The notes under the pieces: model-generated
What the model saw: only the letters and a program-made list of their open reading frames with translations
Databases searched by the model: none
Told to the model about the DNA's origin: nothing
Assembly (NCBI GenBank): GCA_002707495.1
Contig: PAMZ01000007.1
Location: forward strand, 1 to 64,000
Source: Halobacteriovoraceae bacterium
Lineage (GTDB): Bacteria > Bdellovibrionota > Bacteriovoracia > Bacteriovoracales > Bacteriovoracaceae
Length of the DNA: 64,000 bases
Direction of reading: 5' to 3'
Part shown: positions 33,499 to 59,897 of the stretch, piece by piece
Numbering within the stretch: position 1 is the stretch's first letter
Layout: the number at the start of each line of letters is the position of its first letter
Translations under genes and position numbers: made by a program

Positions 33499-34092
33499 AT
33501 GGACATAGATAAGATTAGTTTATTTGCTTTAATCTTTTTCAATATTATTTTAAGCGTAAAATTCTTAATGTCGCATAAAGAATGGACGGGCAAGACTTTG
33601 TCTATCCTTTGTGGGCACCTAGGTGTTTCGGGACTCATAATTAGTGAATCGCTTCTATTTTTAAACAAGATTAATTTAGTGCTTTTTGAAACGCTAAGCT
33701 GCTTTTTTCTTGGTTGGCTCTTTGGAATTTTTACTATGCAAGTTTCGATGCTCTCGATATCGGAAATGAATAAGAAGAAGATGACGACGCTCTGGAAGAC
33801 CCCTGTCGTGGCAGCTCTGGCAGGTATGCTGCTTAAGTCTGACTACATAGGTTTTCTTTTTCTCGGCTTTATTGGAATTTGTCTCTTTTTAATTTATCAA
33901 AATCGTCCAAGACTTAGGTATTTGCTTCCAAAAACCTTACTAGTTTTATCGGTCGCTCCTTTGTTTTTTAGTCTGAGTTTAAGTCAATTATGGATAATGA
34001 ATATTGCCGTCACAATTTTTATTGTCCTGACAAATGTATTTCATAATTTAGTCTTTGCCAGTAATCTATTAGCTGCACATGAAAAAAAATAG
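33499..34092 (+). CDS. Hypothetical polytopic membrane protein
   Basis: 197 residues with about six hydrophobic segments (for example residues 5-22, 36-55, 62-85, 98-130, 140-160 and 163-190) joined by short loops. No conserved family motif is seen. It is divergent from the Fe-S oxidoreductase (78-base shared upstream region) and overlaps the next lipoprotein gene by 14 bases, so the two products probably act together in the envelope. Confidence 0.6.
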   Translation: MDIDKISLFALIFFNIILSVKFLMSHKEWTGKTLSILCGHLGVSGLIISESLLFLNKINLVLFETLSCFFLGWLFGIFTMQVSMLSISEMNKKKMTTLWKTPVVAALAGMLLKSDYIGFLFLGFIGICLFLIYQNRPRLRYLLPKTLLVLSVAPLFFSLSLSQLWIMNIAVTIFIVLTNVFHNLVFASNLLAAHEKK

Positions 34093-35113
34093 ACTTATCA
34101 TTTATATGCTTCTTACGGCACTAGCTTTAATCGGCTGTGCACAGGTGACCAGTTTAAATTTAAGGAAGCATCAATTTGGAAGAATTCCAACTCAAATAGT
34201 ATGGATTCAAGTAGCGGGACTTGCTCCTGAGCATACTGTGCTTTTGAAATACTCCTATCCCTCTCGAGAAACTAAAACAGCCTTTGAAAATGCCTTATGT
34301 ATCGGAAATACTTGGGAATATGACCTTTATAACTTACGGCCCGAAGCACATAGTGGATTTCTAGGTCAGCTCACAGGAAAGAAAAATATTAAAAATACCT
34401 GTGAAGACTATCAGTTGAAACCGATTTGGTCGTATTTGAATAAACAAGGGTATGCTATTGGGATTTTTGAAGGAGAGACAACACCTCAGGAGAGTCTTCT
34501 GGCTTCAAAAGCTTGCTCTGAAGGTGAAGATTTTTTAAAGAGTACTGTTTATTGGAAAATGTCCAAACCTCAATCTGAAGAAACTTTTCATGCAAATGAG
34601 ACGAAAAAATATCGAGAAGACACAGTCTATTATGATAAGTCTTGCGCAAATAAAGAATGCTTTTCAACTCTATCGAGAAATATAGAAGAGACTTTCAAGT
34701 CATTTAGTCGAAGTTCTAAAAACTTTTTGTATCTCATCAGAAATTTTCAATATGCTAAATATTTAAAACAAAATGATATTGCTAAGGCCAAGGCTGAGCT
34801 TGGAGAAATCAACAATGTCTTATCTTTTTTTCAAAAAGAAGCGGAAAAAAATATTGATATGTTGATTATTGTTTCTTCAGCGGAATCTATCGCACTTGAT
34901 TTCCCTCGTAGTGGATCTGAGTGGCAAAAATATGAAAAAAAATCTCGTCTTAAAATTACTCAGAAAACGAAATTACTCTCAACTCTTTATGCTTCTGGAG
35001 CCCGTGCGGAAAATTTCTGTGGGGTCTTTGATCAAAGTGAAATATTAAGTCGTATTTTTAGTGGGGCAAAACAGCAGGGACTAGAGTTTTCTATTATTAA
35101 TCCGTTTGATTAG
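34079..35113 (+). CDS. Hypothetical lipoprotein, possibly a degenerate alkaline-phosphatase-superfamily fold
   Basis: 344 residues; signal MKKNRLIIYMLLTALALIGC with lipobox Cys at residue 20. The segment IPTQIVWIQVAGLAPEHTVLL resembles the first strand and loop of alkaline-phosphatase-superfamily enzymes (V-x-I-x-V-x-GL), yet the metal-binding Asp that normally follows the strand is absent. Several Cys are scattered (CIGNTW, NTCEDY, KACSEG, SCANKEC), suggesting disulfides. The family assignment is weak. A strong inverted repeat follows the stop. Confidence 0.55.
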   Translation: MKKNRLIIYMLLTALALIGCAQVTSLNLRKHQFGRIPTQIVWIQVAGLAPEHTVLLKYSYPSRETKTAFENALCIGNTWEYDLYNLRPEAHSGFLGQLTGKKNIKNTCEDYQLKPIWSYLNKQGYAIGIFEGETTPQESLLASKACSEGEDFLKSTVYWKMSKPQSEETFHANETKKYREDTVYYDKSCANKECFSTLSRNIEETFKSFSRSSKNFLYLIRNFQYAKYLKQNDIAKAKAELGEINNVLSFFQKEAEKNIDMLIIVSSAESIALDFPRSGSEWQKYEKKSRLKITQKTKLLSTLYASGARAENFCGVFDQSEILSRIFSGAKQQGLEFSIINPFD

Positions 35114-35664: not shown

Positions 35665-36833
35665 TGCTTATTTCCAAGCGAAAATGTCCTACTTAACGCA
35701 TTAATATTATTATTCTCAGGTATTCAAAAGTACTGGAGAATGAAATGGGAAAAGTAAGCATGGACGCTAAACAGTTAAAAACCTACAGACTTGCCTGTGA
35801 AGTTCTCGCAGGAAAACTCACCATCAAAGAATTTGCTGAGCTTATTGGAAAGAGCTATCGACAAGCTCAAAGAATCATTAAACGAGTGGAGTCAGAGGAT
35901 TTTTACGGAGTCTTTCACAAAAATCTTGGAAGAACTCCTTACAATAAAACCCCTGAGATCGTGGAAGCTCAGATCAAAGACTGGTTTGGGTATCAATACA
36001 ATGGATTTAATATCACTCACTTTATTGAGATGGTTAAAGAGAAGGAGCAATATCCCTACCTTCCCAAAAAAAGCACGGTTCACAATATTGCCAGCAAGCA
36101 CAACCTTGTTAAATCTCCTAGAAGGGCCAAGAGAAGATCCTTTAAACCTAGAGCAAGACTCCCCAGAGAGGGAATGTTGATTCAGTTTGATGGAAGTGAG
36201 CACGTCTCTTCACGCGATGAAGGTTGTAAAGAGAGTGGTGGATGATAATGGAATCCCTGAAGCGTTTTACATGGATCAAGCGATCATTTATGGAAAGGTC
36301 GATCGAGACTGGGAATCACAGATTGCGAGAGCTTTTGAACAGCTCAATATCCAGTTAATCGCAAGCTCACCTCAAGCGAAGGGACGCGTGGAGAGGCTTT
36401 TTAGAACGCTTCAGGATCGCCTCATAGCTGAGCTTGGCTTTTATAATCTCACCACAATTGAAGAGGCGAACAAGTTTTTACCAGGCTTTATTGAGAGGTT
36501 TAATAAGCAGTTTGGAGTGGAAGCTGAGGAGTCTGAGAAGGCTTATAGAAGAAACGTTTTTGGAAAGACGGATCTCATTCTTTGCAAAAAAGAGAGAAGG
36601 AAAATAGGTGTTGGAAACGTCTTCTCGTATGAGTCAGTGATCTGGCTTATAGATCAAAAGAAGTGCTATCGAGGACGTGAGGTAAACATAAATACCCATG
36701 TTGATGGTAGGCAGAGTTTTGATATTATGGGAAGAGAAGTTCATCCTAAGCCTATCAAGACCAGTCGAAAGTACGACTATAAGAAGCGAGCGGTATGACA
36801 CAGTCGGTAGGACATAATCGCTCGGAAACAACA
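35665..36833 (+). mobile_element. Decayed ISNCY (IS1202-like) insertion sequence
   Basis: The left end (TGCTTATTTCCAAGCG, continuing to TGTCCTAC at 35692) and the reverse complement of the right end (TGTTGTTTCCGAGCG, continuing to TGTCCTAC) align with 22 matches, 5 mismatches and one gap over 28 columns. The right end is directly followed by the 23-bp direct repeat. IS1202-group elements are known for unusually long target duplications, which agrees with the repeat length, though the left copy is not flush with the element end. The single gene inside is disrupted. Confidence 0.65.
35745..36798 (+). pseudogene. ISNCY-family transposase, internally deleted and frameshifted
   Basis: The first frame (from ATG 35745) gives a helix-turn-helix region (LTIKEFAELIGKSYRQAQRIIKR) and reaches the DDE core at LIQFDGS before ending at 36245. 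The second frame (entered near 36200) continues with SLHAMKVVKRVVDDNGIPEAFYMDQ, ASSPQAKGRVERLF and IERFNKQFGVEAEE, the C-terminal half of the same family. The stretch that normally joins FDGS to the helix before KVVKRV, including the second catalytic-region Asp block, is missing. Both a deletion of tens of codons and a frame change are therefore implied, and the transposase is inactive. Confidence 0.85.
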
Positions 36834-36984: not shown

Positions 36985-37899
36985 ATGAAAAATTTTGTAT
37001 TAGCTGCCATGATAGGGTTATCGGCCACAGCGATGGCATCAGAATGTGATATCACGCGAAGCTACAGTAAGTATTATGTAACAATTAACGGTAATTATAT
37101 GTCCGACGCGGCAACATCATTTTCAACAGCGGTAAGAGATATGTATGAGTTGAATAGATATGGGATGTGTTCTCTACCTGTGCCAAGCAATGAGTGTAAA
37201 GTTGAAAGAAGCTATAGCAAGTATTACGTCACCCTCAATGGTAATTATATTTCAGGATCGATTGATAGTCTAAGATCAGTTCGAAGTGTTCTAAACGAAA
37301 GAGTTGAAGCTGGGCTTTGTTTTTACCCTCAAGCAAGAGACGCTTGTGAAGTTCAACGTTCTTATGGAAAATTCTACGTTATCGCGAATGGTTCATATGT
37401 GACCGCAGGGCATGATAATATCGGTAGAGCATTCGATGATATTTCAAGACTCGAGTCACTCGGTGTTTGTTATAATGGAAGTGCTCCTGCTCCGAGGCAA
37501 CCAGATATTACTCCTATCCCTAGAAGAGATGGTGGATATGGTTTAGGGTTTAATTTTAGAAGCCGAGCCCTTTTTATCGCGACGACAGTTGTAAATGTTT
37601 CTAGAGCAATGGAAGGTTTTGTCAATAATGATCAAGAAAGAGAGATTGATGAAATTAAAATCAAGGCGATTCGATTAAGATCAAAAATCAATGCAGGAGC
37701 TTCACTTCAAGAAGTTCGAAATGCAATGTACTACCTATGGTATGACCTAAACAATGCAAGTGGATATATTGAAAGCGCTCTAGAGACAGATCGATTAGAT
37801 TCTTTAGGAGAAGATTATTTAACTTCGCTAGATTCACTCACGGTAATGATAAACTTTCTTGATAATACCTTCACCGGTCAAAGACAAGAGCTTTACTAA
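36985..37899 (+). CDS. Secreted repeat protein A with shared C-terminal helical domain
   Basis: 304 residues; signal peptide MKNFVLAAMIGLSATAMA. Three tandem repeats of about 46 residues follow (about 20-65, 66-113, 114-160), each opening with Cys-x-x-x-RSYSKYYV-x-x-NGNY and closing near a second Cys. After a Pro-rich linker the last 110 residues form a helical domain with the run KAIRLRSKIN and the ending TGQRQELY. The same domain ends the next gene. The repeats look like small disulfide-bounded beta units. No named family is recognised. AGGAG precedes the ATG. Confidence 0.8.
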   Translation: MKNFVLAAMIGLSATAMASECDITRSYSKYYVTINGNYMSDAATSFSTAVRDMYELNRYGMCSLPVPSNECKVERSYSKYYVTLNGNYISGSIDSLRSVRSVLNERVEAGLCFYPQARDACEVQRSYGKFYVIANGSYVTAGHDNIGRAFDDISRLESLGVCYNGSAPAPRQPDITPIPRRDGGYGLGFNFRSRALFIATTVVNVSRAMEGFVNNDQEREIDEIKIKAIRLRSKINAGASLQEVRNAMYYLWYDLNNASGYIESALETDRLDSLGEDYLTSLDSLTVMINFLDNTFTGQRQELY

Positions 37900-37909
37900 T
37901 AGTAACTCT

Positions 37910-37934
37910 CTCCCCCATTAGGTTAGTGGGGGAG
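37910..37934 (+). terminator. Stem-loop between the two paralogues
   Basis: CTCCCCCA (37910-37917) and TGGGGGAG (37927-37934) form a perfect 8-bp GC-rich stem with a 9-base loop, followed by TATTTAGGATTTT. It is a moderate terminator or attenuator between two genes that may otherwise be co-transcribed. Confidence 0.6.
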
Positions 37935-37951
37935 TATTTAGGATTTTAAAT

Positions 37952-39043
37952 ATGAAAAATTTGTTCGCACTAATGATGACTCTGTTGGCACTAGATTCCT
38001 ACGCTTGCTTGATTCAAAACGGACTGAGGTATTGTAGACAAGACAGAGTTATCTATAATTCAAGTGAGGTCACTCTGTTCGCCACTTTGCCAAACGGAAC
38101 GGCAAAAGTAAAATATCAAAATAACAGCGATTTCTATGATAGGTCCATAGAAGACCTCGCCGTAACCTCAGGGTGTACTCGCAATGGCTATTGCGTCGGT
38201 CAAGAAGTTATTTATTCTTCAAGTTTAGTGACCATTACTGGAATAATGCAAAATGGAGATGTAAAAGTTCAGTACCGAAATAATAGTGATCATTACACGA
38301 GAAAAACTGAAGACCTGGCTGTCCTTTTTGGCTGTGTTGATGAAGGTTTTTGCGTTGGTGATCGAGCGATCTATTCATCAAGTTTAATAACTATTCATGG
38401 GATACATCCAAATGGAAACGTTAAAGTAAGGTACAGAAATAATAGTGACTATTATGATAGAGACCCCCGCGAGTTAGCTTACACTACTGGTTGTAACGAT
38501 TTTGACTATTGCGTGGGAGATGAGGCTATTTATGGTAGCAGTTTAGTCACCATCGCTGGAATTCAGCAGGATAATAATGTTAAAGTAAGATATAGAAACA
38601 ACTCCGATTATTATACTCGAGATGCAATGGAGTTGGCGATTCTAGATACTTCAGGACGTCAAAGTGATTTTCGTCGCTATCCAGAATTAGGTTATAGCTT
38701 CAAAGCAAGAGCTTTAAACCTAGCTGAATCACTTATTCAGCATACTAGAAGTATCGAAGGATATCTAACTAACTCAGAAGAAGTTGATATCGACGCGATT
38801 AAATCAAAGGCGATTCGATTGAGATCAAAGATAAATTCTCAAGCTTCAATTTCTGAGGTGAGAACGGCCATGTTTGAACTTTGGCAACAATTACAACTCG
38901 CAAATTATTATTTTGATGAAGCGATGGAAACTGATAATCTTGACTGGTTTGCTGAGAGCTTTTTAACTTCTCAATACAGTCTCAATGAGATGATCCGATT
39001 CCTAGATCAGGATTTTTCTGGTCATCAAAGTCAACTTTATTAA
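37952..39043 (+). CDS. Secreted repeat protein B with shared C-terminal helical domain
   Basis: 363 residues; signal peptide about residues 1-18 (ending DSYA). Four tandem repeats of about 52 residues follow, each of the form YCVGDEAIYSSSLVTI-x-G-I followed by an NG-x-VKVRYRNNSDYY block and a Glu-Leu-Ala segment before the next Cys. They resemble a small SH3/KOW-like beta unit and differ from the repeats of the preceding gene. The last 112 residues are homologous to the C-terminus of that gene, including KAIRLRSKIN and the final GHQSQLY. The domain is therefore combined with two different repeat arrays. Confidence 0.8.
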   Translation: MKNLFALMMTLLALDSYACLIQNGLRYCRQDRVIYNSSEVTLFATLPNGTAKVKYQNNSDFYDRSIEDLAVTSGCTRNGYCVGQEVIYSSSLVTITGIMQNGDVKVQYRNNSDHYTRKTEDLAVLFGCVDEGFCVGDRAIYSSSLITIHGIHPNGNVKVRYRNNSDYYDRDPRELAYTTGCNDFDYCVGDEAIYGSSLVTIAGIQQDNNVKVRYRNNSDYYTRDAMELAILDTSGRQSDFRRYPELGYSFKARALNLAESLIQHTRSIEGYLTNSEEVDIDAIKSKAIRLRSKINSQASISEVRTAMFELWQQLQLANYYFDEAMETDNLDWFAESFLTSQYSLNEMIRFLDQDFSGHQSQLY

Positions 39044-39176: not shown

Positions 39177-41480
39177 ATGCAAGATGATGATGAATTCAAA
39201 GAAGACGGCAGTGTCTGGACTTCTTACTCAGATTTATTTACTACCGTAGCTGTTATTTTTCTCGTTATGTTTGTTTTTGCTCTCATAAAGGCTGGAGTTT
39301 CAAAAATGAGCTCTATGGTTGAAGCAAAACAACATGAACAAGAATTGAGAGCAAAAGTTAGCGATAAGGTAAAAAAAGAAACTCAAAAGAAAGTCAATGT
39401 CGTAGAAGACACATTACATGAGATGGAGAATTACGAAGATCTCGTTAATCAGAAGGTCAAAGAACTGAACTCTTTCGTGAAAGATCTTAAAAAGAATGAA
39501 AAAGTCATGAAAGACTTAATTAAAGATCAAGAACGAAAAGAGGCGATGTTAACTGTTGCCAGTACAAAAATAGATTCGCTAGAAGAATCAGTTAAGGAAT
39601 CTCAACAGGTTAATTCAAAGCTCGATCAAACACTAAAAGAAAAGCTTGAGCAAATCTCTAAACTTCACAATCTTCAGGAGCAATTACAAAAGCAGCTCAA
39701 AGAGCTTAATCAGCAAGTGAAGAATCAAGATCAAGCTCTTAAAGATGTCGAAAGCCAACGAGTAAAAGTTCAAAAAGAATTACTCGAAACTCAAAAGGTA
39801 AAACTAAAACAGGAAGAATTATTGGCGGTTAAAGAGAGTAAAATAGAAGAACTCTCTCAAAACCTCAATCAATCTCAAAAAACATTAGCTCAAACGGACT
39901 CTCAATTAAAAGCCAAAGAGCAGCAACTCAAAACCCAAACAAAAAACTTTGAGGTAGAAATTCAAAAAAGGGATGATGAAATAGTCAAAAGAGAAGAGAC
40001 GGTAAAGAAAAAAGACCAAGAGCTTTCTGACTTGAATAAATTAAAAGAAATTCAAATTCAAAAGATCCAAAAACAAAGCGAGAAGTTAAATACACAAGAC
40101 AGAGAGATAACGGCTCTAACAAAAAACCAAAACGAATTGGAGAGAAGTCTTTCTCAAGAAAGACAGCAAAAAGAGCTGAAAATTTCTGAAAATCAGAATC
40201 TCAAAAATCAATTACAAAAAACATTTAATGACCTCAATCGAACCAAGCAGAATTTAGCTCTTAAAAATTCTGAGTTAAACCAGTCAAACGAGAGAGTAGA
40301 GAATTTTAAAGCTCAATTAGAACAAACGGGGAAAAAATTGGCGACGACCAGTGCAGAGTTGACGAAAGCTCAAGCATTGAGTGCTTCTCAGGCCAGTGAA
40401 ATAAAATCATCAAAAGCTGAGTTGGCTAAACTCACTCAGGCCAAAGGGCAGCTCGAAAATAAACTAGCTGGTGTTCAGGCAAAACTGGGAAGTTTAGAAA
40501 ATTCGCTCAAAGACTCAACAGATCGAAATAAGGAGCTTAGTCAAAAAATTGCCTCGTTAGAAGGTTCCAATAGGCAATTGAAAGCGAGTTATAATCAGCT
40601 TGCGCAAATGAATAAAAATTTCGATGGAGAGAGAAGAAATTTAATCGATCAAATCAAAGGCTATCAAGGGGATCTTAAAAGGCAGCAGCAAAACAATCTT
40701 CTAGCTCAAGCGAAAGTTAATACCTGTCAGGATAATAAGAAAAAGATGCAAGAAAGGGTTGCTCAGCTAGAGAGAAATTTAGTTGATAAGACTGCGAGAG
40801 AATCAGAGCTTCAGGATTCGCTAAATAACTTTGCGAAGAAAGTGGCTAATATCAAAGGTAAACTTAGGTCAAATATTGCAGCTGAGCTCGCTAGAGAATT
40901 CCAAAAAGCAAATCTCAATGTTTTTGTAGACAATAAAACAGGTAACGTAGTTCTTCTCATGGATGAAAATTTTCGATTCAAAAAAGATAGTTATCATCTC
41001 AATAAAAAAGCGAGATCAACTCTTCAAAAAATTGTTCCGATTTATGCAAAAGTACTTTTTGGAAACGATAAGATAAAGGATAAAATCCAATCATTTAATG
41101 TTGTTGGGCACGCTTCTCCGTCATGGGGAGGGAATTATGTGGAACCCCTAAACTCAGGCAGTAAAGCTTATTCTTATAATATGAGATTAAGTGCTCAAAG
41201 AGCGGCTAGTATCACGAACTACATTTTTGGAAACTCAGTAGGAGATTACGATCATAAGAATACTCTCAAAGGGTTTACAAAAGCCATAGGTCAAGGGTTC
41301 ACAAAGCCAGTTCTAAAAGAAATCAATGTGGGCAGATCTCTAGCCTCTGTAGATAGTAAAGGTGGATGTGGTCCTTATGATTGTTATGGATCTCAAAGAG
41401 TTGAATTAAGTTTTTCACTAAAAAATGACGGAAAGTCTTTAAAAAATATCATTAACATGGCCCGCGAGGTCCAAAAATAG
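39177..41480 (+). CDS. MotB/OmpA-like stator protein with a giant coiled coil
   Basis: 767 residues. A short N-terminus leads into WTSYSDLFTTVAVIFLVMFVFAL (residues about 14-36), one membrane segment with an Asp at position 19 where MotB/ZorB-type proteins keep their proton-carrying Asp. Residues about 45-560 are a nearly unbroken coiled coil rich in Lys, Glu, Gln and Leu. The C-terminal 190 residues are OmpA/MotB-like: NFRFKKDSYHLNKKARSTLQKI, VVGHASP, RLSAQRAASITNYIFG and QRVELSF. In known families the OmpA domain holds peptidoglycan. AGGAGA precedes the start. The MotA-like gene follows after 9 bases. Confidence 0.85.
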   Translation: MQDDDEFKEDGSVWTSYSDLFTTVAVIFLVMFVFALIKAGVSKMSSMVEAKQHEQELRAKVSDKVKKETQKKVNVVEDTLHEMENYEDLVNQKVKELNSFVKDLKKNEKVMKDLIKDQERKEAMLTVASTKIDSLEESVKESQQVNSKLDQTLKEKLEQISKLHNLQEQLQKQLKELNQQVKNQDQALKDVESQRVKVQKELLETQKVKLKQEELLAVKESKIEELSQNLNQSQKTLAQTDSQLKAKEQQLKTQTKNFEVEIQKRDDEIVKREETVKKKDQELSDLNKLKEIQIQKIQKQSEKLNTQDREITALTKNQNELERSLSQERQQKELKISENQNLKNQLQKTFNDLNRTKQNLALKNSELNQSNERVENFKAQLEQTGKKLATTSAELTKAQALSASQASEIKSSKAELAKLTQAKGQLENKLAGVQAKLGSLENSLKDSTDRNKELSQKIASLEGSNRQLKASYNQLAQMNKNFDGERRNLIDQIKGYQGDLKRQQQNNLLAQAKVNTCQDNKKKMQERVAQLERNLVDKTARESELQDSLNNFAKKVANIKGKLRSNIAAELAREFQKANLNVFVDNKTGNVVLLMDENFRFKKDSYHLNKKARSTLQKIVPIYAKVLFGNDKIKDKIQSFNVVGHASPSWGGNYVEPLNSGSKAYSYNMRLSAQRAASITNYIFGNSVGDYDHKNTLKGFTKAIGQGFTKPVLKEINVGRSLASVDSKGGCGPYDCYGSQRVELSFSLKNDGKSLKNIINMAREVQK

Positions 41481-41489
41481 GAGTCGTTC

Positions 41490-42401
41490 ATGCTAGAACT
41501 TGTTCTTAGCTTTTTTTCGGATTATCTCATTGAATTTATGGGCTCGTGTATGGCCATAGGTTTAGTCTTTAGATTTGCTGCATTTAAAGCGGCTAAAAAT
41601 GATAATAATTACTACTCCTCATTTACACGTGAGTTGGAACTCAATGTTGAAAGAGATAAAGAAGAGAATGTTTCTATTGATGATGTTGATAGATATCTTT
41701 CTGAAACGCTTGGAAAGGTAGGTAAAAAACTGCCTCAAAGATCAGTTCGGTTCGGAAATAAAAAATCTCCAGCGGAGACCTCAACTGAAGATGGCCATAA
41801 AAAATCTCTTTCTTTGCGTGATTACGTAGCAGGAAGACAGGGGCTGACTTCGAATATTCTCTCTGAGAGTTCGGTCTTTCACAATCAAACACCTCCGAAT
41901 TTCACCGAGCTTACTCATAGAATCATGTCTCAAGATCCACACTGGACTAAAGTCATGAAGCATTTCCCTATTGATAGTGTTTCTAGAATGCTGGATATGC
42001 TTCCGGGACTTTTTATTGTTCTCGGTGTTTTTGGAACCTTCATTGGAATTTCTATGGCCCTTCCTGAGATTGCGAAAATAGATTTTGATGATCTTGCCGC
42101 CTCTGAACAAACGATCAATGCCTTCGTTTTAAATGTTACCTATGCGATGAAGACCTCGATTGCAGGTATTTTTCTTTCGATGATTCTAACGGTTATGAAT
42201 ACGCTTTCACCTATCCGACAAACTCGTGCTAGAGTTTTTAAAAAGGTGGAGTCTGCACTGCAAATGCTTTGGTATCATGTTCAACAAGAGACAAACAAAG
42301 ACAAGTCTTCTGAATTCGTTAATACGAAGCTTTTAAAAGTTCTAGAGAAGCTTGAAGCAAGGCTTGATAAAGAATCAAAACATAATGATGAGGCTGCTTA
42401 A
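41490..42401 (+). CDS. MotA/TolQ/ExbB-like proton channel protein
   Basis: 303 residues. One N-terminal membrane segment (about 5-30), a cytoplasmic stretch of some 130 residues, then two membrane segments in MLDMLPGLFIVLGVFGTFIGISMALPEI and NVTYAMKTSIAGIFLSMILTVMN. The GTFIG and TSIAGIFLS blocks are hallmarks of MotA/TolQ/ExbB and ZorA proteins. The C-terminus is a helical tail of about 60 residues. It should assemble around the MotB-like protein in the upstream gene as an ion channel. Its stop TAA overlaps the ATG of the cyclic-nucleotide-binding gene (TAATG). Confidence 0.88.
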   Translation: MLELVLSFFSDYLIEFMGSCMAIGLVFRFAAFKAAKNDNNYYSSFTRELELNVERDKEENVSIDDVDRYLSETLGKVGKKLPQRSVRFGNKKSPAETSTEDGHKKSLSLRDYVAGRQGLTSNILSESSVFHNQTPPNFTELTHRIMSQDPHWTKVMKHFPIDSVSRMLDMLPGLFIVLGVFGTFIGISMALPEIAKIDFDDLAASEQTINAFVLNVTYAMKTSIAGIFLSMILTVMNTLSPIRQTRARVFKKVESALQMLWYHVQQETNKDKSSEFVNTKLLKVLEKLEARLDKESKHNDEAA

Positions 42402-42868
42402 TGAGTATTATTAATACCATTAAAGGAAGTCCTCTTTTTTATGAACTATTTGATGAAGAAATAGAGACTATTATAGAGGACTGCCATGTTTTGAATCTCG
42501 AAGCAGGAGATTATATTTTCCATGAAGGTGATCATGGAGACGAAATTTTCCTTATTTTAACGGGGGCTGCGGCTGTTAAAAAAGGAGAAGTCACTTTAGT
42601 TGAGCTTCGAAAAGGTGATCTCTTTGGAGAAATGGTCCTTTTAGATGAAAGAACAAGAACGGCAGATATTGTCTCTAGTACGTATACAGATGTTTTAGTT
42701 TTAAGTTACGAAGTTATATTTGGTGTTTTTAAAAAGAATCCGAAAATATTTTCTCTCTTGATGCTTAATTTATGTAGACTCTTGGCCAAACGCCTCAAGG
42801 GGTCAAGCGATCAAATTAAAAAATTGAATTCCATGATTGCCGAATTTGAGAATAAAAAAGCGGCTTAA
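42401..42868 (+). CDS. Cyclic-nucleotide-binding domain protein
   Basis: 155 residues, essentially one cNMP-binding domain: EAGDYIFHEGDHGDEIFLILTG, the beta roll, and the phosphate-binding cassette KGDLFGEMVLLDERTRTADIVS. The RTA of the cassette fits cAMP or a related nucleotide. A helical C-terminus (about 120-155) follows, with no DNA-binding domain, so it is not a Crp-type regulator. Its start overlaps the stop of the channel gene, strongly suggesting it is part of the same complex or regulates it. It ends 2 bases before the convergent hslO gene. Confidence 0.9.
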   Translation: MSIINTIKGSPLFYELFDEEIETIIEDCHVLNLEAGDYIFHEGDHGDEIFLILTGAAAVKKGEVTLVELRKGDLFGEMVLLDERTRTADIVSSTYTDVLVLSYEVIFGVFKKNPKIFSLLMLNLCRLLAKRLKGSSDQIKKLNSMIAEFENKKAA

Positions 42869-42869
42869 A

Positions 42870-43703
42870 TTAATGAACAGGTTTGGTAAACTCTTCTGAT
42901 CCTATGTAGTAAAGGGTATTACAATAATCACAGCGAATTTCTACGGGGTCATTTTCAGCGAAGACATGGTCTCTGTCATCTTCGGTCAAAGTAAATAGAT
43001 TTTCAATCATTCGCTCCTTAGAACAAGGACAGTGAAAATTCATTTCTTTAGAACCCAAATAAACACAGCCCTGAGATTCAGTTAATTCTTCTAACTGTTT
43101 TTGTGTGTAATCATGATTGAGAATCTCTTTAAAGAGGTCTTGATATTTTTCTAGTATCTTATCCATTGTTAGAGGATCAAGTTCTTCAAATTTAGAATCA
43201 ATATTGGTGGGTGGAAGCAGGGTTACCATGAGCGAGTTCTCTTTGTCTTCAGACATGAGTATTTTGGAATTGGTTTGGTAAGATTGCTTCATAACCTGAT
43301 TGATAATTTCATCCAGATCTAATTTCTCAAACTCTAAAACAGAGGTATAGGGAGATCCACCTATGATTGACTTGTATATCCTGCATTTGCCAGTAAATAG
43401 CTTGGGAAAATCGCTAAACTCCTCTGGAAGCAGTAAAGTTCTCATCATTCCCTCTGAGGACATTTCAACCTTGAAGCGATAATAAGGCTCTTCGGAATCA
43501 ATATAAAAGCCAAGGGACTCTCGAGGTTTTAGAAAATTTACCATCTGCATTGAAGATAAAACGGTTCGATTATAGAAGTCTTTTGCATGCGGACCGATAT
43601 TGTGGATAGCGTCGATTTGTGCGATGAGCGGTGCGCCTTTAATTAAGCTAAAGCTAAATCCATTGATATTATTAAGAAAATGATATTGATGACATTTTTC
43701 CAT
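42870..43703 (-). CDS. hslO: Hsp33-type redox-regulated chaperone
   Basis: 277 residues. The C-terminal zinc-binding switch is C225-x-C227 and C258-x2-C261 (FHCPCSKERM and RCDYCNTLY), the Hsp33 pattern that releases zinc on oxidation and activates holdase activity. The N-terminal substrate-binding domain is divergent (LIAQIDAIHNIGPHA, then GKCRIYKSIIGGSPYTSVLEF), lower in similarity than E. coli Hsp33. Cytoplasmic. It converges with the cNMP protein gene and has its own upstream region of 67 bases shared divergently with addB. Confidence 0.85.
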   Translation of the reverse strand: MEKCHQYHFLNNINGFSFSLIKGAPLIAQIDAIHNIGPHAKDFYNRTVLSSMQMVNFLKPRESLGFYIDSEEPYYRFKVEMSSEGMMRTLLLPEEFSDFPKLFTGKCRIYKSIIGGSPYTSVLEFEKLDLDEIINQVMKQSYQTNSKILMSEDKENSLMVTLLPPTNIDSKFEELDPLTMDKILEKYQDLFKEILNHDYTQKQLEELTESQGCVYLGSKEMNFHCPCSKERMIENLFTLTEDDRDHVFAENDPVEIRCDYCNTLYYIGSEEFTKPVH

Positions 43704-55540: not shown

Positions 55541-57550
55541 GTGAACGTTACAACTCAAACTGAAAACAAACTTTTTCAACTCGTTCCGAGTAAGCAGGGT
55601 TCAACCATTTCCACAACAGTACTGTCTGTTGGACGCTATTTGGTGGGAAGGGCAGAGAGTTGTGATGTGATTATTCCATCGAATATCGTTTCATCAGTTC
55701 ATGCCGTTTTGGAGGTAACCCCTACAAGTGTAAAAATTTATGATATGAATTCCAGAAATGGAACCTATGTTAATGGAAATAGATCCATTACCCATGATAT
55801 TAAGGCTGGTGATATTCTCGCCTTTGGAAATATCGAATTTACTTTAAGAATTTATACCAGTACACCAGATCTTCCTCCTGTTTTATCTACGCTAGATCCC
55901 TTAAAAGGAGATTCAAGTCTTCATAAAAAGGAACTTCCTAAGAAGTCTCCTGTAGAACTACCACCTGAGAATATGGACTTTGATAAAGATGACGATATTC
56001 CTTATATTGTTTATCCGCTTTCAAGAGATCCAAAGTCTGATTTTTCAGAGTATATCTTTGAGGATGCGGACGAGCTCTATCCTATCTTTAAGTATGAACT
56101 TAATAAACAATCTCTTGAAGTCATTATTTTACACGGGGATAAAGTCTATTCAGTAGATTATCTTCCCGCCAGTGATGCGACCTATCAGATTTCAGGAAAG
56201 CTTAAAGGTAAAAAAGAAATTGAATTTCCTTATTTGGCAAAAGAAGAGAAGGTCGACTTTATTGAAGTCCATAAAGGAAATTATCTCATTCATAAACTAC
56301 ATAATTATGATCTTCTTCATCTATCAGATAATGAAGTGACTGAAGAAAAAACTGATCGTGTAAATCTGAATGATAATGATATCGTTAAACTTCGAAATGG
56401 AGATTTGGAGATTTATGTCAGAAAAGTGGCCTCTCCTCCAAAAGTGAAGACACCTCCATTTTTTAGACGAGATAAAGATCTTAGAAAGTATATTCTTTTG
56501 ATGTTACTTATCGTGATCTTGCCAGTGGTGGCGCTTAATTTCTTAGAGATTGATGAAAAATTAGAAGATGAAAAAGATCCTGAAAGGATCGCCACGATTC
56601 TTTATCAACAAAAATTAACTATCAATACTAATCGAGCAGTCGAAAAGACCAAAACTGAAAAAGAAAAGCCTGTTAAGCAGAAAACAGACAAGGCAAAAAC
56701 TCCTAAGAATACTAAAGAGAAAAAGGATCCGGCTCAAAAAAATAATGAGAAAAAAGATACAACTAAGACAGCTGGGCAAAAAGCGAAACAACCCGCAAAA
56801 AATCCTACTAAAGAAAAATCTCGAGGGAAAAAAGCACCAAGAAAAAGTGGAAGGCCATCAAAAAGTTTAGTGAAAAAAGCAGCAAAAGTTAAAAACTTTA
56901 ATAATACAGCAAGCAATAGAAGAAGAGCTAATCTTCCTTCCACTAATAAAGGTCGCGTGGATACTTATAAATCTTTTGATTTTAAAAGCTCCATTAGTAC
57001 TTTAATGGCGAAAGGTGGAACCCTTAAGGGAGTTAAGACAGCAAAAACGGGATCACAAACTGTGACAGGAACAACAGTGACAGGAACCAATGGGCAAAAT
57101 GGGAAGATTCAAACGGCTACTGTTTCGGGAGATTCAGGAAGCTTGAACACCACTGCTAATACTGGAAGTCAGGTAGGAACCAAAGGTTTCTCAACAAAAA
57201 CTGGAACCTATACGGCGGGAATCCCTTCCGATACGGTTGTCTTGGGTTCAATGGACCCAGATGTTATTCGAAGAATTTTAAGACAAAATATTCCGCGATT
57301 TAGAAGTTGCTATCAACGCGAACTTGATAGAAGTGCTAGTAATGATGTTTCTGGAATCATTCGGATGGTATTTACCATTGGAGCTTCAGGAAGTGTGACG
57401 ACAGCAGGAATTGATGGAAATTCAGCTCTACCAAACTCTGTAAAAAGATGTGTGGTTGGAGTTTTGAGAGGTATCGGTTTCCCAAGACCATTAGGGGGAG
57501 GAACAGTTGACGTTAAACAACCATTTAGTTTTTACCCTAAGCGTTTGTAG
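55541..57550 (+). CDS. FHA-TM-AgmX/PglI C-terminal domain protein (GltG-like)
   Basis: 669 residues from GTG 55541. Residues about 25-110 form an FHA domain (VGRAESCDVIIP, then SSVHAVLEV and MNSRNGTYVNG) that would bind phosphothreonine in the cytoplasm. A membrane segment lies near residues 313-332 (ILLMLLIVILPVVALNFL), then a Lys/Thr/Pro-rich linker (about 350-460) able to cross the periplasm. The last 95 residues (RILRQNIPRFRSCYQREL...GSVTTAGIDGNS...FPRPLGGG) are the AgmX/PglI C-terminal domain, TonB-like in logic. It should connect inner-membrane motor and outer-membrane parts. GltG of Myxococcus is the closest counterpart I know. Confidence 0.85.
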   Translation: MNVTTQTENKLFQLVPSKQGSTISTTVLSVGRYLVGRAESCDVIIPSNIVSSVHAVLEVTPTSVKIYDMNSRNGTYVNGNRSITHDIKAGDILAFGNIEFTLRIYTSTPDLPPVLSTLDPLKGDSSLHKKELPKKSPVELPPENMDFDKDDDIPYIVYPLSRDPKSDFSEYIFEDADELYPIFKYELNKQSLEVIILHGDKVYSVDYLPASDATYQISGKLKGKKEIEFPYLAKEEKVDFIEVHKGNYLIHKLHNYDLLHLSDNEVTEEKTDRVNLNDNDIVKLRNGDLEIYVRKVASPPKVKTPPFFRRDKDLRKYILLMLLIVILPVVALNFLEIDEKLEDEKDPERIATILYQQKLTINTNRAVEKTKTEKEKPVKQKTDKAKTPKNTKEKKDPAQKNNEKKDTTKTAGQKAKQPAKNPTKEKSRGKKAPRKSGRPSKSLVKKAAKVKNFNNTASNRRRANLPSTNKGRVDTYKSFDFKSSISTLMAKGGTLKGVKTAKTGSQTVTGTTVTGTNGQNGKIQTATVSGDSGSLNTTANTGSQVGTKGFSTKTGTYTAGIPSDTVVLGSMDPDVIRRILRQNIPRFRSCYQRELDRSASNDVSGIIRMVFTIGASGSVTTAGIDGNSALPNSVKRCVVGVLRGIGFPRPLGGGTVDVKQPFSFYPKRL

Positions 57551-58152: not shown

Positions 58153-58704
58153 CTATTGGTCTTCGCCTAAAACAATAAACTTATACTCTTTAAATCCAGC
58201 CGCAGCACACGTATACATCACTTTTTTTACATAAGAATATTTTATCGTTTTATCGATGATGAGATTAGCTATTCCGGTAAATTTCTTTTTATTTTCATCA
58301 TCCTCAGAAACTCCAGCCACCATATTGACTTGCTTACTGAGGGTTTTAATCTCTTCTTTCTTTTTAACTAGGGTATCGTACAAAGGAACTAGCATTCTTC
58401 CTTTTTCACCAAAGATATTTTTATTTTGCTTGAGATCCTCTTCAACATCGAGAATAAGCTCGTCATCCACATAGATTCGCTCTTTTGCCACTTGAATCAT
58501 AACCCCTGGATTATTAGCCGTCTCTGATCTTGAGTCGGGTAGAGTAATACCTTTTGGTACATTGAGAACAACACCTGAAGAATTATAGGATTTTAAAAGA
58601 AAGACCAGTAGAATAACCAGAATGTCTAATAGGGAAGTGATATCGATATTTTCAACTTTCCTTCTCGCCTTCTTTTTATTTCTTATTGATCTATTTCTCG
58701 CCAT
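58153..58704 (-). CDS. ExbD/TolR-like protein 2 (AglS/AglQ-like)
   Basis: 183 residues. A basic N-terminus leads to NIDITSLLDILVILLVFLLK, one membrane segment with the proton-channel Asp at residue 27 (TolR pattern). The periplasmic part includes VPKGITLPDSRSE and a C-terminal TolR-like domain with a single Cys (MYTCAAAGF). It is 2 bases downstream of the other TolR-like gene. In Myxococcus, AglQ and AglS are TolR homologues that work with AglR. Confidence 0.88.
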   Translation of the reverse strand: MARNRSIRNKKKARRKVENIDITSLLDILVILLVFLLKSYNSSGVVLNVPKGITLPDSRSETANNPGVMIQVAKERIYVDDELILDVEEDLKQNKNIFGEKGRMLVPLYDTLVKKKEEIKTLSKQVNMVAGVSEDDENKKKFTGIANLIIDKTIKYSYVKKVMYTCAAAGFKEYKFIVLGEDQ

Positions 58705-58706
58705 AA

Positions 58707-59237
58707 TTAACTCATTAAGTTTCCAAAAACAATTTTGTTAAATAACTCTTTAACAACCTCATCGATACCCGTTTTTTTATTTTTTCGAGTCAGGAGGTCA
58801 TCAGAGTTTCTCATTGTCCGCATTGCATCCATCATATTTATAATCTGTTGGTATTCCACATCGACTTGTGGTTCGAAAATCACCTGATTCTCATAGATAT
58901 TCGCTTTTTTTATTCCCACTAATTTACTATGAAGAGTTTCAAGATCGTATTCTCCACCAGCCTTAGGAACAATAAAATTTATATTGCCTCTTGAGGTAGA
59001 AACCTCAAACCCTTTTGTCGTCACTTCTACTGTCAAACCAAGTGGTTTCTCCTTTGACGGAGGTGGGTTAGCTGCAGAGAGAATTGGTATGTCAGAACCA
59101 ATTTCGTAGATCTTCAAAAACTGTGAAGACATAAGAAGAAAGAAGAGAAATATAAACACTGAATCTAATATAGGAATCAGATTCAGTGTTTCTCTATCTC
59201 TTTGATTTTTTCTTCTTGTTGGTTGTTTATAAGCCAT
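58707..59237 (-). CDS. ExbD/TolR-like protein 1 (AglQ/AglS-like)
   Basis: 176 residues. LNLIPILDSVFIFLFFLLMSSQFL is the membrane segment, with the TolR-type Asp at residue 25. The periplasmic portion (DIPILSAANPPPSKEKPLGLTVEV, VIFEPQVDVEYQQIINMMDAM) has the usual ExbD/TolR fold. It starts 3 bases after the TolQ-like gene ends, and is followed after 2 bases by the second TolR-like gene, so the three are one transcription unit. Confidence 0.9.
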   Translation of the reverse strand: MAYKQPTRRKNQRDRETLNLIPILDSVFIFLFFLLMSSQFLKIYEIGSDIPILSAANPPPSKEKPLGLTVEVTTKGFEVSTSRGNINFIVPKAGGEYDLETLHSKLVGIKKANIYENQVIFEPQVDVEYQQIINMMDAMRTMRNSDDLLTRKNKKTGIDEVVKELFNKIVFGNLMS

Positions 59238-59240
59238 TTT

Positions 59241-59897
59241 TTACTCTTCCGATTTCTCTTTAGTTCCAAGAAGGTCGAGAAGTTTTACACTAAATTCATC
59301 AATTTCATTTATGATTTTATCAGCCTTGGAAGTTAAAAAAGCATGAATGACCATAATTGAGATAGCTGTTAATAAACCTAAAAAGGTTGTATTCATCGCA
59401 GTTGAAATACCTTTAGATAGAAACTCTGCCTTTTGAGAGGCATCGATACTGTCAAGAGCACCAAATGATGTCATAAGACCTTGGATAGTTCCTAGGAGTC
59501 CAAAAAGTGTGAGAATATTAGCAATCAATTGAAGATAACCAAGTCGTCTTTCAACTTTAGGAACAACTTCTAATGCTGTGGCATCAAGAGCGTTTTGAAT
59601 TTGCTCAGTTCCTTGATTCGCCCTTTTAAGTCCATTTTTTAAAACTTTTGGAAGAGCTGCACTAGTTCCTGAACAAACTCTAATGGCCCCTTGAATATCG
59701 TTGGAAAGAACATAACGTTGTATTTCATTCATAAAAGAGGCACCATCAACATCGAAACCTTTGGAGAGTCTTCTAAATCTCTCAAGCGCAATAGCGATCC
59801 CGATTCCCCAAACGGCAAAGATGATTCCCATAAAAATCCCACCATTTTGGATGAAACCTGCAATCTGGTCGATCATCGTGATTTCGTTACCTTCCAT
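59241..59897 (-). CDS. TolQ/ExbB/MotA-like channel protein (AglR-like)
   Basis: 218 residues. Three membrane segments: about 14-38 (GGIFMGIIFAVWGIGIAIA), 127-150 (IANILTLFGLLGTIQGL) and 168-190 (AMNTTFLGLLTAISIMVIHAFL). The GTIQG and TTFLGLLTAI blocks are TolQ/ExbB hallmarks. The start at 59897 has GAGGAG at good spacing. With two TolR-like partners it reproduces the composition of the AglRQS gliding motor, powered by proton flow. It lies convergent to the operon of Glt-like structural proteins. Confidence 0.9.
   Translation of the reverse strand: MEGNEITMIDQIAGFIQNGGIFMGIIFAVWGIGIAIALERFRRLSKGFDVDGASFMNEIQRYVLSNDIQGAIRVCSGTSAALPKVLKNGLKRANQGTEQIQNALDATALEVVPKVERRLGYLQLIANILTLFGLLGTIQGLMTSFGALDSIDASQKAEFLSKGISTAMNTTFLGLLTAISIMVIHAFLTSKADKIINEIDEFSVKLLDLLGTKEKSEE

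Follow-up and report, generated by a model that had tools for sequence, protein, structure and literature searches.

Within the window analysed here, a stretch of 64,000 nucleotides of contig PAMZ01000007.1 (assembly GCA_002707495.1) from a Halobacteriovoraceae bacterium, a member of a group of predators in the phylum Bdellovibrionota, positions 39177-42868 carry three plus-strand open reading frames (ORFs) of 767, 303 and 155 amino acids (aa). In order, they encode a membrane protein with a very long coiled coil and an OmpA-like end (hereafter LONGB), a membrane channel, and a protein with a cyclic-nucleotide-binding (CNB) domain. This triplet is conserved and, as judged from its sequences, co-inherited across dozens of species. 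Its core is related to the ZorA and ZorB proteins of the Zorya defence system (ZorAB) and, hence, the triplet is a new variant within the 5:2 motor family rather than a new class. On balance, the three proteins probably make up one functional unit, a ZorAB-like, ion-driven 5:2 motor combined with a soluble, ligand-binding regulator. The genes are as follows:

39177..41480, plus strand: LONGB, the B subunit (767 aa), with a short acidic N-terminus, one transmembrane (TM) helix carrying Asp19, the coil and an OmpA-like end.
41490..42401, plus strand: the channel, or A subunit (303 aa), with profile and fold matches to ZorA and, next best, fold matches to TolQ/ExbB.
42401..42868, plus strand: the CNB protein (P0003, 155 aa), a single cyclic-nucleotide-binding domain followed by a C-terminal helix.

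LONGB and the channel gene are spaced by 9 bases (41481-41489), and the channel and CNB genes overlap in a TAATG, with one base in common; this is exactly the layout given by an earlier, sequence-only reading of this DNA. The common strand and the tight spacing are compatible with a putative single operon; consensus scans for promoters and terminators at the triplet gave scores no better than those of shuffled sequence. The cluster stops at the CNB gene, since its downstream neighbour, an Hsp33-like gene (42870-43703), runs on the opposite strand.

When considering the possibility that these genes belong together, the first question is how often they are found together. The relatives examined came from a survey of 59, from a scan of named genome contigs and from 369 genomes of the phylum. 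Their channels fall into two grades that are well separated by profile score (about 276-500 bits versus 110-147 bits), the first of which comprises 45 distinct channels after removal of duplicates. The CNB gene immediately adjoins the channel gene at 42 of these 45 loci (in one case inverted), which is far above chance, as compared to the 12 CNB domains encoded in this genome. At one of the other loci (L070), the contig ends inside the channel gene, so that this locus is no counter-example; at L096 and L137, the pair lacks a CNB gene. From locus to locus, the surroundings mostly differ. The sequence-only reading had suggested looking for the ordered triplet in other Bdellovibrionota, with a failure of the genes to stay together counting against it; the genes have stayed together. 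The link between channel and CNB protein is not mere shared synteny because no flanking family is present at more than 12 of the 45 loci (the most recurrent one, a mixed response-regulator cluster, at 12, and the next one at 9). Furthermore, the evolutionary distances of the proteins are correlated, with r of 0.85 for channel and CNB protein, 0.87 for channel and OmpA domain, and 0.81-0.87 over all three matrices, and none of 2000 permutations reached the observed values. These correlated distances show co-inheritance of the three sequences, not contact between the proteins. Most named hosts of the first grade belong to the Bacteriovoracaceae/Halobacteriovoraceae, with Bacteriovorax sp. DB6_IX and Halobacteriovorax marinus among them, and three first-grade matches fall in two other families of Bdellovibrionota.

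The single inverted CNB gene is found in a metagenome-assembled genome (G009; L037:7467-7961 and L063), where it is adjacent to the channel gene and convergent with it, owing to either a real inversion or an assembly artefact. Since the gene is inverted there, coupled translation of channel and CNB protein does not seem to be obligatory.

Three features of LONGB map as follows:

39231..39233, plus strand: the codon for Asp19, which is expected to carry the ion in the TM helix and is invariant in the alignment.
39432..40907, plus strand: the coiled coil, residues 86-577, free of proline, with a period of 3.5 and a heptad phase without a sharp break.
40908..41477, plus strand: the OmpA-like domain, about residues 578-767, with GHASP in place of GHTD, LSxxRA retained, and C731/C736.

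The TM signature of LONGB, W-x-S-Y-S-D19-x-F-T, is of the MotB/ZorB type, with D19 at the start of the TM helix. Among 12 aligned rows, the invariant residues are W14, S16-Y17-S18-D19, G644-H645-A646-S647-P648, L671-S672-x-x-R675-A676, C731, C736 and R741. By position, we take Asp19 to be the equivalent of Asp32 of MotB. In ZorB, the equivalent position is occupied by D24, which is required for defence (PMC11890865).

The coil appears in the AlphaFold model as a helix of 492 residues (86-577). The sequence-only reading had put it at about 515 residues, an overestimate, and had rightly recognized the membrane Asp19, the coil as such and the C-terminal OmpA domain. The hydrophobic period is 3.51 residues, with a power of 5.97 versus a maximum of 2.4 in 200 shuffles; the heptad phase shows no sharp break either here or in the homologues L062 and L077, and the middle part of the 1758-aa homologue L040 is weakly periodic. 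In homologues of this type that seem to be complete, LONGB varies in length from 556 to 1758 aa, with the channel meanwhile staying near 305 aa, and the coil is estimated at a median of 517 residues (range 281-1484), which, at 0.1485 nm per residue, corresponds to an extended length of 42-220 nm if the coil is one uninterrupted helix. A hairpin, in which the coil would fold back on itself, is disfavoured: AlphaFold does break the helix at 364-372, but with low confidence, and the heptad phase varies only to a limited extent over this stretch. These data favour one continuous coil.

In the OmpA-like domain of LONGB, GHASP replaces the usual GHTD (GHSSP in four of 35 homologues), and LSxxRA, R741 and the two cysteines, C731 and C736, are invariant in 35 of 35. 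The H645-x-S647 pair is invariant as well; GHTS stands at the corresponding position of a type II ZorB chain, and the spacing suggests that the aligned His and Ser of LONGB correspond to the His/Ser pair of type II ZorB. In the latter protein, H141, S143, R215 and R230 are needed to bind peptidoglycan (PMC11890865). LONGB matches the ZorB profile at 2.4e-27, and its closest solved fold is ZorB (8vvn, E 6e-7). A sequence search of the PDB with the OmpA domain alone returned nothing significant (best E 0.035), and across the LONGB family the match to Pfam MotB_plug is marginal at most.

Two variants of the gene deserve mention. In genome G020, a second copy of the locus (L087 / L049:6081-7919) has LONGB as two ORFs of 412 and 162 aa before an intact channel and CNB gene, which may reflect a frameshift, decay or an assembly error. 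In the sub-clade L067-L069, LONGB is 556-559 aa long, and a conserved gene of 567-571 aa lies directly upstream in the same orientation, possibly as a fourth component in this sub-clade.

The channel has the three-TM layout of TolQ, ExbB and ZorA and not the four-TM layout of MotA: TM1 near residues 3-28, a cytoplasmic loop of about 130 residues, TM2 (GTFIG, with T183), TM3 (TSIAGI, with T222) and a C-terminal helix at 242-298. It ends about 60 residues past TM3, and the median length in the family is 305 aa (the longest, 372). T183 is invariant and T222 is found in 34 of 35 sequences. The padloc ZorA profile matches at 3.6e-11 and the NCBIfam ZorA profile at 7.6e-10 (38.4 bits versus a curated cut-off of 100); the match to Pfam MotA_ExbB (PF01618) is weak (E 0.21, 11.8 bits versus a cut-off of 22.9). 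The nearest solved folds are ZorA (best E 2e-3), followed by TolQ and ExbB. With these fold matches and the polar T183 and T222, the channel qualifies as a member of the MotA/TolQ/ExbB fold; the earlier description of it as "MotA/TolQ-like" holds for the TolQ side and for both motifs, but the protein is ZorA/TolQ-like rather than MotA-like.

The third protein is, as had been proposed, a single-domain cyclic-nucleotide-binding protein: Pfam cNMP_binding (PF00027) matches it at 1.6e-18 (66.9 bits versus a cut-off of 27.5), and the Pfam profile search revealed no DNA-binding domain. All 35 sequences share E77, R86, R126 and R131. The cassette FGEMVLLDERTRTA (F75 to A88) agrees with FGEMALIDNQNRSA (F56 to A69) of Bd1971, the cAMP-sensing cyclic di-GMP (c-di-GMP) phosphodiesterase of Bdellovibrio bacteriovorus, so that the two proteins have a phosphate-binding cassette FGEMxLxDxxxR[ST]A in common; in the structure of Bd1971, cAMP is held by Glu58, Arg67, Ser68 and Arg108 (PMC6717892). 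Bd1971 differs in that it carries an EAL enzyme domain, whereas P0003 consists of the CNB domain only. Apart from its 12 CNB domains, the genome encodes two class III nucleotide cyclases. When compared with ten other CNB proteins of this genome, those of the triplets group together in a single clade of their own (split support 0.976). From the gene overlap, the sequence-only reading had suggested that the CNB protein is part of the motor or controls it; what survives of this argument is a lasting adjacent partner with intact ligand residues, whereas the overlap itself, given the inverted gene, is not essential.

The second-grade channels are found across the phylum, including B. bacteriovorus (L101). 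Here LONGB, with a coil estimated at 252-580 residues, is followed by the channel and then by a protein that varies between several hundred and about 1300 aa and combines an FHA domain at its N-terminus with a long coiled coil (Pfam FHA, 5e-17, in the third gene of L101). By direct reading, the FHA protein of L101 has a hydrophobic segment near its C-terminus that resembles a membrane anchor. A recognizable FHA gene fills the third slot at 28 of 35 sister loci, the remainder having another gene, none, or an unreadable one; at L052 and L102, the third gene encodes a coiled-coil protein that lacks a Pfam FHA match. A composition specific for the CNB protein, as the sequence-only reading had it, thus does not extend to the phylum as a whole, where an FHA protein is the commoner product of the third gene. 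On a channel tree of 81 rows, built by a quick method and containing several long branches, CNB and FHA are separated by one state change among the labelled rows. From this single change, the third gene is an exchangeable module of a common motor core. Its exchangeability is the strongest hint that its product serves as a regulator or adaptor of the motor.

The LONGB-channel-FHA unit of B. bacteriovorus strain kdesi (L101:6273-11210), also seen at L139-L158, appears to be undescribed as a unit. More divergent pairs of a long-coil B subunit and a channel, with no adjacent sensor gene, were encountered at L056:7893-11391 and L061:6112-8975.

How, then, does the triplet compare with the known members of the family? 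The best neighbours of both subunits, in sequence and in fold, are those of Zorya (ZorAB, types I and II), which has the same three-TM channel. ZorB is marked by a TM Asp and an OmpA-like, peptidoglycan-binding domain with HxS, and LONGB has both (H645, S647 and R741 being invariant). In Zorya, however, the long tail is on ZorA (PMC11890865), whereas here the coil is on LONGB, the peptidoglycan-binding subunit, as the sequence-only reading had noticed, and the C-terminal helix of the channel is about 57 residues long; in addition, the third gene is a CNB or an FHA gene. Across the 45 loci, neither ZorC, ZorD or ZorE nor recurrent nuclease or helicase neighbours were found, and the flanks vary. 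Membership in Zorya is rejected on account of the missing ZorA-type tail, the missing effector genes and scores below the model cut-offs.

MotAB and PomAB, which belong to the 5:2 motor superfamily (PMC9389320, PMC12505986), resemble the pair in the TM Asp motif and the OmpA peptidoglycan anchor, but MotA crosses the membrane with four helices and has a torque interface, and the plug and linker of MotB are short. Since conventional motB-type genes are found elsewhere in this genome, the triplet is not the default flagellar stator; this candidate is rejected also in view of the unmet MotA cut-off and the three TM helices. TolQR, ExbBD, AglRS and GldLM are ion-driven 5:2 envelope motors, too, and TolQ and ExbB are the next-best channel folds. 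TolR and ExbD, however, have neither an OmpA domain nor a long coil (TolA being a separate protein), the shaft of GldM is not a coiled coil, and we know of no CNB or FHA partner gene in any of these four systems. A recent phylogeny that covers MotAB together with its non-flagellar homologues ranks ZorAB among the remote ones, and the passages considered describe neither a CNB or FHA partner nor a coil of such size (PMC12505986). No description of the triplet system was found in the literature covered, which excludes subscription journals, and no family model names it, in agreement with the earlier remark that no named system has this composition. The claim of a new unit thus stands as regards the composition, which has no match in the literature covered, and has to be qualified as regards the core, which is recognizably ZorAB-related.

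By homology to ZorAB and MotAB, five channel subunits would surround two LONGB chains, and the LONGB dimer would be anchored to peptidoglycan via OmpA domains at the end of a long periplasmic coil. Ion flow past Asp19 would turn the channel ring relative to the coiled-coil shaft. The CNB protein would bind cAMP or cGMP in the cytoplasm, dock on the channel ring, and switch or brake the motor. Such a switch can be envisaged by analogy with YcgR, a PilZ c-di-GMP protein that is reported to act directly on the flagellar stator channel MotA (PMC10140304) and so offers a precedent for a soluble second-messenger protein working on a stator channel. The precedent differs in involving PilZ and the flagellar motor, whereas the CNB protein is encoded in the putative motor operon. 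In the sister set, the FHA protein fills the slot of the CNB protein, so that regulators responding to cyclic nucleotide or, presumably, to phosphothreonine could be interchangeable on one core. The sequence features consistent with this scheme are the ion-path residues (Asp19 of LONGB; T183 and T222 of the channel), the OmpA fold at the end of a heptad coil, and the intact CNB pocket. As to the output at the level of the cell, envelope- or surface-related mechanical work in Bdellovibrionota is our guess. We suggest only tentatively that this is a new class of cell-envelope motor, for the most part restricted to Bdellovibrionota, in which a ZorAB-like ring is gated directly by cAMP or cGMP (by FHA and phosphothreonine in the sister set) and a periplasmic coiled-coil shaft of about 40-220 nm, well beyond the depth of the periplasm, is driven or serves as a tether.

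Several observations weigh against a regulated, ZorAB-like motor. One genome has the CNB gene inverted, and two loci lack it; mirror-tree correlations are also expected from shared descent alone; the similarity to ZorA and ZorB stays below the curated NCBIfam cut-offs; and the AlphaFold confidence is moderate for the channel (pLDDT 77) and low for LONGB (pLDDT 66.7). Finally, in most LONGB homologues, the charge flanking the TM helix is mostly negative before it and neutral to positive after it, which misfits the positive-inside rule for an N-terminus inside the cell.

It is conceivable that the pair acts as a motor or envelope anchor tethered to peptidoglycan and that the CNB or FHA protein shares its operon or serves as a structural adaptor, with no ligand-dependent regulation of the pair. 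Adjacency and co-inheritance, indeed, indicate partnership and not regulation, and the pair persists without CNB at L096 and L137 and without FHA at the lower-score loci L056 and L061, with L052 and L102 having their coiled-coil third genes. But the ligand contacts E77, R86 and R131, invariant throughout, would be needless in a purely structural adaptor, and one and the same slot is taken by two unrelated sensor-type domains, CNB and FHA; we regard this explanation as rather unlikely.

We consider it improbable that the topology of LONGB is reversed or otherwise unusual, with the coil in the cytoplasm as a rod similar to the ZorA tail rather than a periplasmic shaft. Such an arrangement would suit the flanking charges, and the periplasm is usually less deep than the 42-220 nm estimated for the coil. 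The TM motif WxSYSDxFTxxxxxFLVMF, however, retains the MotB/ZorB direction, and the OmpA domain has, besides its peptidoglycan-binding residues, two invariant cysteines, as expected in the oxidising periplasm.

Still less probable is a divergent, Zorya-like phage defence with the CNB protein as a sensor of cyclic nucleotides induced by infection, in the manner of Pycsar effectors: the nearest relatives are ZorA and ZorB, the CNB protein scores on Pycsar effector profiles (though via the common CNB domain), and AddA/AddB-like nuclease-helicase genes lie downstream of the triplet in the window, but no gene similar to ZorC, ZorD or ZorE recurs beside the triplet, AddAB and Hsp33 are adjacent in the closest relatives only, the triplet is mostly confined to one bacterial family with tree-congruent inheritance, viral contigs contain no match, and the CNB protein carries neither a toxin nor a membrane-pore effector.

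The neighbouring genes were considered as further parts of the system and rejected. AddA/AddB and Hsp33 retain their adjacency in the closest relatives only, and the upstream two-component, exonuclease-like and 571-aa genes are confined to sub-clades (9 and 3 of the 45 loci). A phage or mobile origin is rejected as well, given the lack of a match in viral contigs. Immediately upstream of the triplet, the window carries tandem paralogues (36985-39043; 304 and 363 aa) with signal-peptide-like starts, internal repeats, one of which matches the SH3_15 repeat family, and a common C-terminal domain; they are not found beside the triplet in relatives. A transposase-like pair of ORFs with an out-of-frame overlap (35745-36245 and 36187-36798) separates an upstream gene (34079-35113) from the triplet. 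The stretch between that gene and the triplet looks inserted because the same gene abuts LONGB in L037, L062 and L070. Farther away, the window contains an FHA-domain protein (55541-57550, plus strand) and, on the opposite strand, a TolQ/ExbB-type channel (59241-59897) with two ExbD/TolR genes (58153-59237), that is, a separate Tol/Agl-like motor cluster.

If the scenario of a regulated, ZorAB-like motor is true, the triplet would be an extra member of the small set of ion-driven 5:2 motors, with the long element placed opposite to that of Zorya and with a swappable sensor gene. Three questions are thereby opened to direct testing: whether a rotary motor can be gated by a cyclic mononucleotide, how the cell accommodates a coil that exceeds the depth of its periplasm, and which machine Bdellovibrionota, including the model predator B. 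bacteriovorus with its FHA type, possess in addition to the flagellar and Tol/Agl motors.

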